34,120 nt of DNA from Eubacteriales bacterium (GTDB lineage Bacteria > Bacillota > Clostridia > Christensenellales > Aristaeellaceae), in contig JAQXRL010000158.1 of the NCBI GenBank assembly GCA_029218505.1, positions 1 to 34,120 on the forward strand, in the 5' to 3' direction. The translations under genes were made by a program, and so were the position numbers. The notes under the pieces are model-generated. The model was not told the DNA's origin, searched no databases, and saw only the letters and a program-made list of their open reading frames with translations. This document shows positions 22,162-25,267 of the stretch, in pieces (position 1 is the first letter of the stretch; every line of letters starts with the position of its first letter).

Positions 22162-23172
22162 ATGCCTCAGAAATTGCGAAGGGCACTGACCGCTGTCCTC
22201 ATGTGTTTGATGCTTCTGTCCATGTTGCCTGTTTCCGCCATGGCGGAAACATACGAAGCCAAAGTGTATACATCCAGGATGAACGTATACTCCAGTACGA
22301 GCACGTCATCCCGGTATTATCTGGGATATTTGAAGAAGGGAACCATCTTTACGGTACATGCCATCAAAGGCGAATGGGCAAAGGTTTCCTACAAAGGCAA
22401 GCGCGGTTTTGCGCAGTTCAAAGACATCATTATGCGGAAACGTCTTCTTCGCTACACCAAGAAAGCCGCTCCCGTATACAAAAGCGCCAGCAGTTCTTCC
22501 AAAAAGCTGATGACGCTGCCCATCGGCACGGAGGTGTATCTCGTCGGCAAAGACGGAAGCTATTGGCTGGCACAGAACAAAAGCGGCACCATGATCGCCT
22601 ACATTCACGAAAAATACGTAACATCCAAAAAGCCAACCGTTAAGCCCACGCCTACGCCCACCCCTGTTCCCGACGAGGATGATGGTGAGGATGTAAGCTG
22701 GGGCAAACCGGCCGCCACGCCAAAGCCATCCGCCACTGCCGGCGCTACGCCAACCCCAACTCCAAAGCCCACCTATGCCAGCAAAGCGGATCAGGTGATT
22801 GCGCTGGCCCAGGAACAGCTTGGCAAACCCTACAAGGAAAAATGCAATCCCCCGGACAGTTTTGATTGCGCGTTTTTGGTATATTATTGCTACGAGTCCG
22901 CAGGCGTGGATGTAAAAAGCTCCGCCGAATCCATCGGCTATGACTCCAGCATGGACAAGATTCCCAAAATTTCCGATCTCGTTCGGGGAGACATTGTTTG
23001 CTTCGATACCAACAGCTCGGATTCCGACTTGAGCGACCATGTGGGCATTTACATCGGCAACGGCAAATTCATCCATGCTTCTTCCAGCGCGGAGAAAGTA
23101 ATTGTATCCGATTTGTCGGATCCGGATGGATATTATGTGCGAACCTTCTCCTGGGGGCGCAGACCCTTCTAG
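22162..23172 (+). CDS. Secreted SH3-domain / NlpC-P60 family peptidoglycan hydrolase
   Basis: Start MPQKLRRALTAVLMCLMLLSMLPVSAMA; SH3-like segments; Pro/Thr linker (KPTPTPTPVP, ATPTPTPKPTY); ...IALAQEQLGKPYKEKCNPPDSFDCAFLVYYCY...DHVGIYIGNGKFIHASS. SD GGAGGG. Confidence 0.93.
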   Translation: MPQKLRRALTAVLMCLMLLSMLPVSAMAETYEAKVYTSRMNVYSSTSTSSRYYLGYLKKGTIFTVHAIKGEWAKVSYKGKRGFAQFKDIIMRKRLLRYTKKAAPVYKSASSSSKKLMTLPIGTEVYLVGKDGSYWLAQNKSGTMIAYIHEKYVTSKKPTVKPTPTPTPVPDEDDGEDVSWGKPAATPKPSATAGATPTPTPKPTYASKADQVIALAQEQLGKPYKEKCNPPDSFDCAFLVYYCYESAGVDVKSSAESIGYDSSMDKIPKISDLVRGDIVCFDTNSSDSDLSDHVGIYIGNGKFIHASSSAEKVIVSDLSDPDGYYVRTFSWGRRPF

Positions 23173-23205
23173 CGCTGCCCTTGGAGCCATAGGGTTTTGT
23201 ATTCC

Positions 23206-23237
23206 AGGAACCACGGCATTGCTGTGGTTCCTTTTTT
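23206..23237 (+). terminator. Intrinsic terminator after NlpC/P60 gene
   Basis: AGGAACCAC/GTGGTTCCT 9-bp stem followed by T6. Confidence 0.9.
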
Positions 23238-23277
23238 GCAAAGTTTCGGCGATCTATTGTGAAAAAAACAGCCAAGT

Positions 23278-23340
23278 CAGGACATATCTCCTGCGGATGC
23301 TTGTCAATCCCACGCTTCGCCAATCCTATTTCCGAGGATT
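23278..23340. repeat. Repeat module copy A: hairpin + GCTTGTCAATCCCACGCTT (23299-23317) + hairpin
   Basis: CAGGA/TCCTG hairpin 23278-23293; 19-nt repeat; AATCCT/AGGATT hairpin 23322-23340. Confidence 0.7.
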
Positions 23341-23351
23341 CCTGGTGTTTC

Positions 23352-23367
23352 CGCCTGTTCGGCGAAT
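23352..23367. repeat. 16-nt repeat CGCCTGTTCGGCGAAT, copy 1
   Basis: Identical to 23715-23730; contains CGCC/GGCG mini-hairpin. Confidence 0.75.
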
Positions 23368-23534
23368 ACGGCATAACCACCTTGGGCGGTTTGATCAAGC
23401 CCTGCAAGGGCTTTCAGCTTATCCAAACAGACTTTTTGACAAGCTGGCGGACGGGGAAGCAGGCTCTCCTCGCCACGGCCGTGCTCTCCCTGCGTTTTTC
23501 GACCGTCTGCAGGGGCTTTCCTCCTGTGGCCGCC

Positions 23535-23595
23535 CTCGAAAGAGGCGTCGAGAGGCTTGTCAATCCCACGCTTTGCAAATTCCCTTTTGGGAATT
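23535..23595. repeat. Repeat module copy B: hairpin + GCTTGTCAATCCCACGCTT (23555-23573) + hairpin
   Basis: CTCGA/TCGAG hairpin 23535-23552; identical 19-nt repeat; AATTCCC-TTTT-GGGAATT hairpin 23578-23595, starting at the same offset (+23) as in copy A but with a different stem sequence. Confidence 0.7.
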
Positions 23596-23714
23596 CGTTC
23601 TGCATTCTCTACTATCGATATCTCGCTGTTCCCGGCGGAGTCGCACCTTTGATATGGCTTCATGCCTTTTGCGAAAGCTTTTTCTTCCTGTCCCCCAGTT
23701 CAACCGGGAGGATA

Positions 23715-23730
23715 CGCCTGTTCGGCGAAT
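23715..23730. repeat. 16-nt repeat CGCCTGTTCGGCGAAT, copy 2
   Basis: Identical to 23352-23367. Confidence 0.75.
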
Positions 23731-23734
23731 GCGC

Positions 23735-23776
23735 AAACACGCGCTCAATCCACTTGCCATGATTGAGCGCGTGTTT
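23735..23776 (-). terminator. Long perfect hairpin downstream of rlmH, possible terminator or transcript-end structure
   Basis: 16-bp perfect stem aaacacgcgctcaatc/gattgagcgcgtgttt with 10-nt loop, 9 nt from the rlmH stop; minus strand ends with only TTT. Confidence 0.6.
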
Positions 23777-23785
23777 CGACGCCGA

Positions 23786-24262
23786 TTATTTATGGTAACG
23801 TTCTCCCGCCAGGATGCGCTCCGCCCGATAAAGCTGTTCCAGCAGCACCACGCGCATCAGGCCATGCGGAAAAGTAAGATTGGAAAACGACAGGCGCGCA
23901 TCCGCCCGGGCCAGCACTGCGTCACTCAGGCCATTGGAACCGCCTATGACCAACACCAACCTGCGACCGTCCGCCATCCAATCGCTGAGTTTCCGCGCCA
24001 ATCCGGGAGAATCCGGCGCGGCTGCCTGCACACACAAAGCGACCACGCGGTCTGTGGGACGAATCTGCCGGAGCAACGCCTCGCCTTCCTTTTCCATGCC
24101 CTGGCGGATGAGCGCATCGGACGGGCGTTCCGGATCCCGCACGTCTTCCACCTGCACAATTTCATATTTCCCATATCTGGAAAGGCGCTTCAGATATTCC
24201 TCGCACCCCTGGCGCTGCCATGGCTCCTTCAGTTTGCCCACGCACAGAATCGTAACATTCAT
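23786..24262 (-). CDS. rlmH: 23S rRNA (pseudouridine1915-N3)-methyltransferase RlmH
   Basis: MNVTILCVGKLKEPWQRQGCEEYLKRLSRYGKYEIVQVEDV...LVIGGSNGLSDAVLARADARLSFSNLTFPHGLMRVVLLEQLYRAERILAGERYHK. Confidence 0.97.
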   Translation of the reverse strand: MNVTILCVGKLKEPWQRQGCEEYLKRLSRYGKYEIVQVEDVRDPERPSDALIRQGMEKEGEALLRQIRPTDRVVALCVQAAAPDSPGLARKLSDWMADGRRLVLVIGGSNGLSDAVLARADARLSFSNLTFPHGLMRVVLLEQLYRAERILAGERYHK

Positions 24263-24274
24263 ACGGCGCCTCCG

Positions 24275-25267
24275 TCACGATAAAATCCCCAGCATCAAAA
24301 GAATATCCTCCGCGTACAGCACCAGCGTGGTCACAATGCCGGAAAGCAACACCACCAGCTCTGCGGCGGATGTTTTCACGCCCGTATCCTGCGCCAATGA
24401 AACATTCCGCCGAGTCATTCTGTGTTTGAAAAGATACATAAGCGCCGCAAACAGTCCGAATTGGTAGAAAAACTCCAGCGCCAGCATTGCCATTTCGGAA
24501 ATGTCCGCCTGCATGGCGGCGCTTTCCTGAAGCATTTCTCCGGAGATGGAATTGAACCGCAGCATCGCAAAGTTGATCAACAATACGATGGCGTTGTGGG
24601 CGGTGTGATAAATCATGCCGGCATAGATGGAATCACAGGCCGTTACCAAAAAGGCAATGACCACTCCCAGCAGCAATTGCGAAGGAATTCCCTGCACGGA
24701 TCCATGCAGCAGCATAAACAGCACCGCCGAATACAGCATCGCCTTTCTGCCGCCCCTGCGTTCCCACGCGGAAAGAATCATGCCGCGAAACAAAAATTCT
24801 TCGCAGATGCCCGGCAACACGCAGGAAGAAAACACATACAGCGTCAATCCCCGGGTGCTGGTGGGAATGGTCATCTGCGCGTAAGAAGTATCGCAGCCCA
24901 ACCATTCCAACAGCAGCGTCCAGAAATAGGACAGCACCGTTACCACCATGACCCCGGCGAACGCCGTGAGCACAAGAACGACCGTCGCCCGAAAGGACAG
25001 CGGATTCAAGCGAAGCGCCGGCAAACATTCCGGCCTGCGCCGAGAATACAGCCACACAGGAATGGCCATAAACAGCAGATAGTACAGCGCGTTGAACAGC
25101 AGCATGGCCGCCTCCGCCGAAAGCGACGGGAACAGCGCATACATGCCCCGAAGAATGGGCGCCGAAAACAACCCAAGCACGACCAGTCCGGCCGCGGCCA
25201 GCAGAAAAAGGGCGTTTGCCGCAAACACCGACGGCCTTCGCCCATAACACATTTTTTGATCAGACAT
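24275..25267 (-). CDS. CPBP-family intramembrane glutamic endopeptidase (CAAX protease-like)
   Basis: Multi-TM protein with CVLPGICEEFLFRGMIL, LFMLLHGSVQGIPSQLLLGVVIAF and IYHTAHNAIVLL motifs. Confidence 0.93.
   Translation of the reverse strand: MSDQKMCYGRRPSVFAANALFLLAAAGLVVLGLFSAPILRGMYALFPSLSAEAAMLLFNALYYLLFMAIPVWLYSRRRPECLPALRLNPLSFRATVVLVLTAFAGVMVVTVLSYFWTLLLEWLGCDTSYAQMTIPTSTRGLTLYVFSSCVLPGICEEFLFRGMILSAWERRGGRKAMLYSAVLFMLLHGSVQGIPSQLLLGVVIAFLVTACDSIYAGMIYHTAHNAIVLLINFAMLRFNSISGEMLQESAAMQADISEMAMLALEFFYQFGLFAALMYLFKHRMTRRNVSLAQDTGVKTSAAELVVLLSGIVTTLVLYAEDILLMLGILS

Follow-up and report, generated by a model that had tools for sequence, protein, structure and literature searches.

The window, a 34,120-nt stretch of the MAG G000 (3.29 Mb in 399 contigs, 86.7% complete), contains a gene-poor island bordered on the left by the Rho-independent terminator of an NlpC/P60 gene and on the right by a terminator hairpin beside rlmH (Table 1). 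Inverted repeats locate the arms of both hairpins, and these agree with the borders given in the initial annotation. The two repeats described there, together with the hairpins around them, lie exactly where they had been reported: GCTTGTCAATCCCACGCTT occurs as an exact copy at 23299 and 23555, within a surrounding match that extends to 36 nt with 83% identity, and CGCCTGTTCGGCGAAT at 23352 and 23715, within a match that extends to 30 nt with 80% identity. Both strands of the island are more stably folded than shuffled sequences (z of -4.1 and -5.1). The reading frames in the island had been described as lacking a recognisable domain, and they indeed have no match in Pfam. A domainless frame of 393 codons (23102-24283, plus strand) crosses the island and runs antisense to rlmH; it is a likely source of false hypothetical-protein annotations. 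Elsewhere in the window, a T-box leader is found on the minus strand (2356-2589; Rfam RF00230, 97 bits).

Table 1. Features of the island and its borders, in window positions.
Feature	Position	Strand	Basis
NlpC/P60 gene	22156-23172		Pfam PF00877
Rho-independent terminator of the NlpC/P60 gene, left island border; arms 23206-23218 / 23220-23232, then T6	23206-23238	+	Sequence, inverted repeat
Family A unit 1, with an internal deletion; model positions 142-244 at 23270-23348 and terminal CGCCTGTTCGGCGAAT at 23352-23367	23270-23370	-	Profile hit (L001 1598-1676), alignment with other copies
Family A unit 2, interrupted by B; pieces 23371-23414 and about 23510-23729	23371-23729	-	BLAST, profile hit, tandem junction
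Family A hairpin AAGCCCTGCAAGGGCTTT targeted by B; complete left-hand copy, adjoining B	23397-23414	.	Sequence, match to A consensus hairpin AAGCCCTATCAGGGCTT, junction
Element B, MITE reduced to 95 nt by an internal deletion; palindromic 5´ end CAGCTTATCCAAACAGACTTTTTGACAAGCTG, 3´ end TTTTTCGACCGTCTG	23415-23509	+	B consensus match, element ends
CAGGGGCTTT, what is left (3´ half) of the target duplicate on the right	23510-23519	.	Sequence
Terminator hairpin beside rlmH, arms 23735-23750 / 23761-23776; family A begins within a few bases, as in nearly all copies	23735-23776	.	Inverted repeat, flanks of other A copies
rlmH (SPOUT methyltransferase), right neighbour	23786-24262	-	Pfam PF02590, 1.5e-51

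Comparison of the island with its own genome gave 73 matches at E<=10, the majority below 1e-5, which cannot be attributed to chance. These matches fall into two families, A and B, each covering its own portion of the island. Two units of the dispersed repeat A stand there in tandem, and the second is interrupted by a 95-nt copy of B. Two of the origins offered in the initial annotation, a dispersed structured repeat family and a composite non-autonomous element, are therefore both correct: the island combines the dispersed repeat A with the mobile repeat B, seated inside one hairpin of A. Beyond the island, copies of the modules are abundant in the host genome, and matches were also obtained in relatives.

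The A unit is about 270-280 nt long and contains at least seven short hairpins. Profile searches identified 76 distinct hits among the own-genome loci fetched, and a 25-nt core of A has 40 matches across the genome and none in the control. The units occur singly or in tandem and are joined at or near GGTGGTTATGACTTCGCCGAACAGG; in the window, positions 23513-23729 are 82% identical to the A consensus (BLAST), and the tandem junction resembles those at L006 and L126. Nearly all copies start next to the terminator hairpin and T-tract of a gene, and no duplication was seen flanking the A units. Among the 308 genomes of the family, the A core matched one other genome (G569), which belongs to another genus and carries one full copy with 84% identity (L206 1448-1729), again directly after a terminator. 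Judging from this copy, A too may move or be transferred. A partial copy is present in G030.

Several origins of A were considered and rejected. Since A begins directly after terminators, we considered a group IIC intron, for which there is no intron match in Rfam. A decayed protein-coding gene, named in the initial annotation as one outcome that would overturn its reading, is not borne out: there is no Pfam match, 133 of the 147 internal gaps in 25 A copies have a length not divisible by three, and none of the frames stays open across the copies, although some open frame exists in 14 of the 25 copies and stops are fewer than in shuffles. The proposal that the hairpins keep their pairing while their sequence changes finds no significant support. 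The stems AATCCT/AGGATT and AATTCCC/GGGAATT, on which it partly rested, are homologous, but CAGGA/TCCTG and CTCGA/TCGAG are not homologous repeat positions; among 25 copies, both partners had changed in 8 pairs versus 6.4 ± 1.9 after shuffling, and 132 of 500 shuffles gave a count as high as 8. With covariation at the shuffle level, and with Rfam returning only the T-box at the gathering score and nothing convincing at E<=1, a conserved or noncoding RNA is unsupported.

Element B is 95-300 nt long, typically 190-238 nt; its 5´ palindrome and its 3´ end are conserved, and the part between them varies. Its core pattern has 47 matches in G000 and its 3´-end pattern 59, with 0 in the controls. In the consensus, the ends form imperfect terminal inverted repeats, CAGCTTGTCcAAAAA and CAGACTGTCgAAAAA, that are identical at 12 of 15 positions; the outermost bases are conserved as CAG..CTG, and TGTC...GACA lies 5 bp inside the ends. 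B contains no gene, and the island frames are without a Pfam match. B is a MITE: a short, dispersed, multi-copy element that has terminal inverted repeats and a target-site duplication and lacks a transposase gene. The copy in the window matches the B consensus over 75 nt at 89% and over 30 nt at 97%. The sequence CACGGCCGTG near 23474, listed as a further hairpin, is present, but it is the join of an internal deletion within the inserted B.

Individual copies vary further. One copy of 300 nt (L055) carries at least about 90 nt of extra internal sequence that the other copies lack; this may be left over from a longer parent or be a piece of host DNA that was picked up. At four loci of G017 (L071, L073, L075 and L085), relatives of B have the body TGTGGACGGGG... 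without the 5´ palindrome before it; at L071 and L073, a local hairpin stands in the place of the palindrome and is still duplicated at the opposite end, which would suit a palindrome that forms a module of its own. Many B copies are located at most a few hundred bases from contig ends (G000 contigs C9, C21, C155, C174, C263, C292, C391 and others), and such repeats are therefore a probable cause of assembly breaks.

The main property of B becomes visible only when other copies are compared: its insertion sites are terminator hairpins, and the hairpin is duplicated in full. At the junctions, the same hairpin stands before and after B, and it is another hairpin at each locus. When a left/right flank alignment score of at least 12 is required, 24 of 38 complete B copies have matching flanks, compared with 17 of 3000 trials in which the flanks were taken from different copies. 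Measured against 32-mers sampled from these loci, 31 of the 38 left flanks fall under the 5th percentile for folding. The duplicate is a complete terminator-type stem-loop of 18-31 nt (median 27.5 nt), identical on both sides in 8 of 24 cases. Its length tracks the hairpin span with r = 0.83, a correlation that is partly built in, since a single 42-nt flank supplies both measurements. Of the 24 duplicates, 17 have at least four T among the eight bases after the right copy and 11 have at least four A before the left copy; nine have both features and five have neither, in line with the survival of one complete terminator in most cases.

The remaining 14 complete copies fail the duplication test, and these include the copy in the window (L100), which has a flank-alignment score of only 7 because its right-hand duplicate lacks the 5´ half. 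The missing half would fit a short deletion between two CTGs.

Nested hairpin-B-hairpin-B-hairpin arrays are found at L112 and L139, and at least seven B copies lie inside three hairpins of A: AAGCCCT..AGGGCTT is the target in the window, CCCCCAG..CTGGGGG at L051 and L111, and TGGAGTCACATC..GATGTGGCTCCA at L009/L098, L020, L055 and L056. The same hairpin duplication occurs in other genera, namely at L061 (G030), L065 and L081 (G017), L194, L196 and L197 (G503), and L202 (G654). The sequences themselves show the repeats and their ends, the type of target, the duplication of the whole hairpin, the nesting and the recurrence in independent genera. Tandem terminator hairpins might instead have arisen first, with B-like DNA filling the gap later by recombination, and several hairpins do stand in a row within A units and beside some terminators. 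We regard this order of events as highly improbable, because the hairpin differs at nearly every locus while the B ends stay constant, and the 24 copies lie exactly between two copies of the local hairpin.

The B pattern is present in 21 of the 308 genomes and 14 of the 50 genera of the family, with counts of 29, 22, 18 and 17 in some genomes and zero in most. An exact match was also found in Candidatus Alectryocaccomicrobium excrementavium, the genus of which was placed by its authors in Christensenellales, family CAG-74 (PMC8035907); the host of the window may belong to that family as well. This patchy presence, together with the many truncated and nested copies, the shuffle-level covariation and the lack of an Rfam family, makes it very unlikely that A and B are host elements, that is, structured RNAs or 3´-end regulatory modules with a function downstream of genes, a reading that would account for the strong folding and for the position of both families directly downstream of genes and terminators. 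For a phage or plasmid origin, no match was found in INPHARED or PLSDB, and none to the exact patterns in IMG/VR.

A transposase that could mobilise B was sought in the IS1182 family. None was detected in G000 by PF13751 or NF033551, in a MAG of the completeness given above that breaks at repeats. IS1182-family transposases occur in genomes of the same family, intact or partial in G030 and G318 and degraded in G017; across 396 genomes of the order, only two have close relatives. The ends of these elements are CAGACTGTCCGAAAAG in L166 and L167 (G318) and CACCTTGTCTGAAAAC / CAATCTGTCTGAAAAC in L151 (G030), and the corresponding end on a Pseudoalteromonas plasmid is CAGACTGTGTGAAAAC. The 3´ end of B, read inwards as CAGACTGTCGAAAAAC, is identical at 13 of 16 positions to CAGACTGTCCGAAAAG and to CAGACTGTGTGAAAAC, a similarity that is short; the 13/16 identity holds for the ends of L166 and L173. 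In L151 and L166, the two same-family elements with a legible left end, a hairpin is found 7-8 nt from that end; the right end of L151 is a doubled, palindromic inverted repeat like the 5´ end of B. A search for 20-mer inverted repeats yielded clear ends for three of six IS1182 elements (L173, L174 and L175); in the relatives, none of the IS1182 elements found was both complete and flanked by a duplicated whole hairpin. In G030, which has the intact L151, three further IS1182-type transposase genes (L105, L154 and L156) are broken by in-frame TGA codons. The end match, the doubled palindromic end and the hairpin near the left ends make IS1182-type mobilisation the best explanation, short of proof.

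It is unlikely that B, as a hairpin-targeting MITE, owes its movement instead to a different family of transposases that make long target duplications, such as the IS1202/IS481 group. IS1202-group duplications of 16-28 bp (PMC10132070) and the TGTC...GACA found 5 bp inside the ends of B would suit it, but the outer ends of IS1202 are TGT..ACA and its long-duplication group has no recognised target (PMC10132070), whereas B ends in CAG..CTG, has a duplication of 18-31 nt that tracks the hairpin, and matches at its ends the IS1182 elements of relatives. We therefore rejected IS1202 as the mobiliser, as neither its ends nor its duplication pattern fits.

We thus interpret the island as an A dimer carrying B, a hairpin-targeting MITE for which a DDE transposase of the IS1182 family, acting in trans, is the probable mobiliser, and assign this reading a probability of roughly 0.78. 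In the proposed mechanism, the transposase would recognise the ends of B (CAGnnTGTCnnAAAA) and choose its target by shape; the target would be a Rho-independent terminator's stem-loop or another hairpin like it, probably in the form of an extruded cruciform. Joining to the 5´ feet of this structure would then duplicate the whole stem-loop. Because one border would keep the hairpin and its T-tract, the insertion should be nearly harmless to the host. As each insertion creates new target hairpins, nested arrays become possible. What we infer, rather than observe, is the identity of the transposase family and its action in trans, the cruciform stage, where joining takes place and the near-neutral effect on the host.

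B may be seen as a transposon that lands behind genes without disrupting them, and its insertions account for gene-poor, hairpin-rich islands in these genomes, at which assemblies break and false hypothetical proteins may be annotated. Tens of copies with readable duplicates make the family a dataset on how a transposase acts on hairpins, covering length, cut position and orientation. For some IS1182 members, ISfinder lists variable long repeats, so individual whole-hairpin cases may be known to curators.

Among known systems, the closest likeness is to the IS1182 family, some members of which are reported to target palindromic sequences (PMC4923244, PMC5678879). Duplication of a whole stem-loop was drawn by Wan et al. 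(2017; PMC5678879) as a hypothetical pathway b, and had previously only been proposed, for a related insertion sequence; no MITE with whole-stem-loop duplications was found in the open-access PMC literature searched, in which such duplication is undocumented. We lean towards the view that B is a natural high-copy family using pathway b, with joining at the 5´ feet and copying of the whole stem-loop, that finds terminators by their shape, leaves them functional and creates the targets for its next insertions, such that nested arrays accumulate behind genes across a family of gut Clostridia.

Other short or long-duplication elements share single traits with B. RUP and BOX of Streptococcus pneumoniae (PMC3049150, PMC10969869) are likewise short and multi-copy, with end repeats, target duplications and mutual nesting; in contrast to these, B targets a hairpin of any sequence and duplicates the entire hairpin at variable length. 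The IS1202 family (PMC10132070) resembles B in its unusually long target duplications, 16-28 bp in one subgroup, and is unlike B in its outer ends and in having no recognised hairpin target in that group. SPRITE is similarly a small dispersed repeat near gene 3´ ends that is linked with termination; it is itself terminator-like, whereas B inserts at terminators and A follows them. The IS1182 elements of relatives and plasmids (L151, L166, L171-L175) share end repeats of the type CAGACTGTnnGAAAA with B, but they are full-length and carry the gene, with no whole-hairpin duplication shown around them, whereas B is gene-less. Shape-based target choice is known from few transposons. IS1272 and TnSha1 of Staphylococcus, like B, use inverted-repeat hairpins as targets by shape rather than sequence, and the ends of B resemble those of the IS1182 family to which IS1272 belongs. 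The well-studied IS1272 targets hairpins, often terminators, and destroys them (PMC4923244, PMC5678879): it removes or truncates the target stem-loop with no duplication, whereas B, without a transposase gene of its own, keeps the stem-loop and duplicates it whole.
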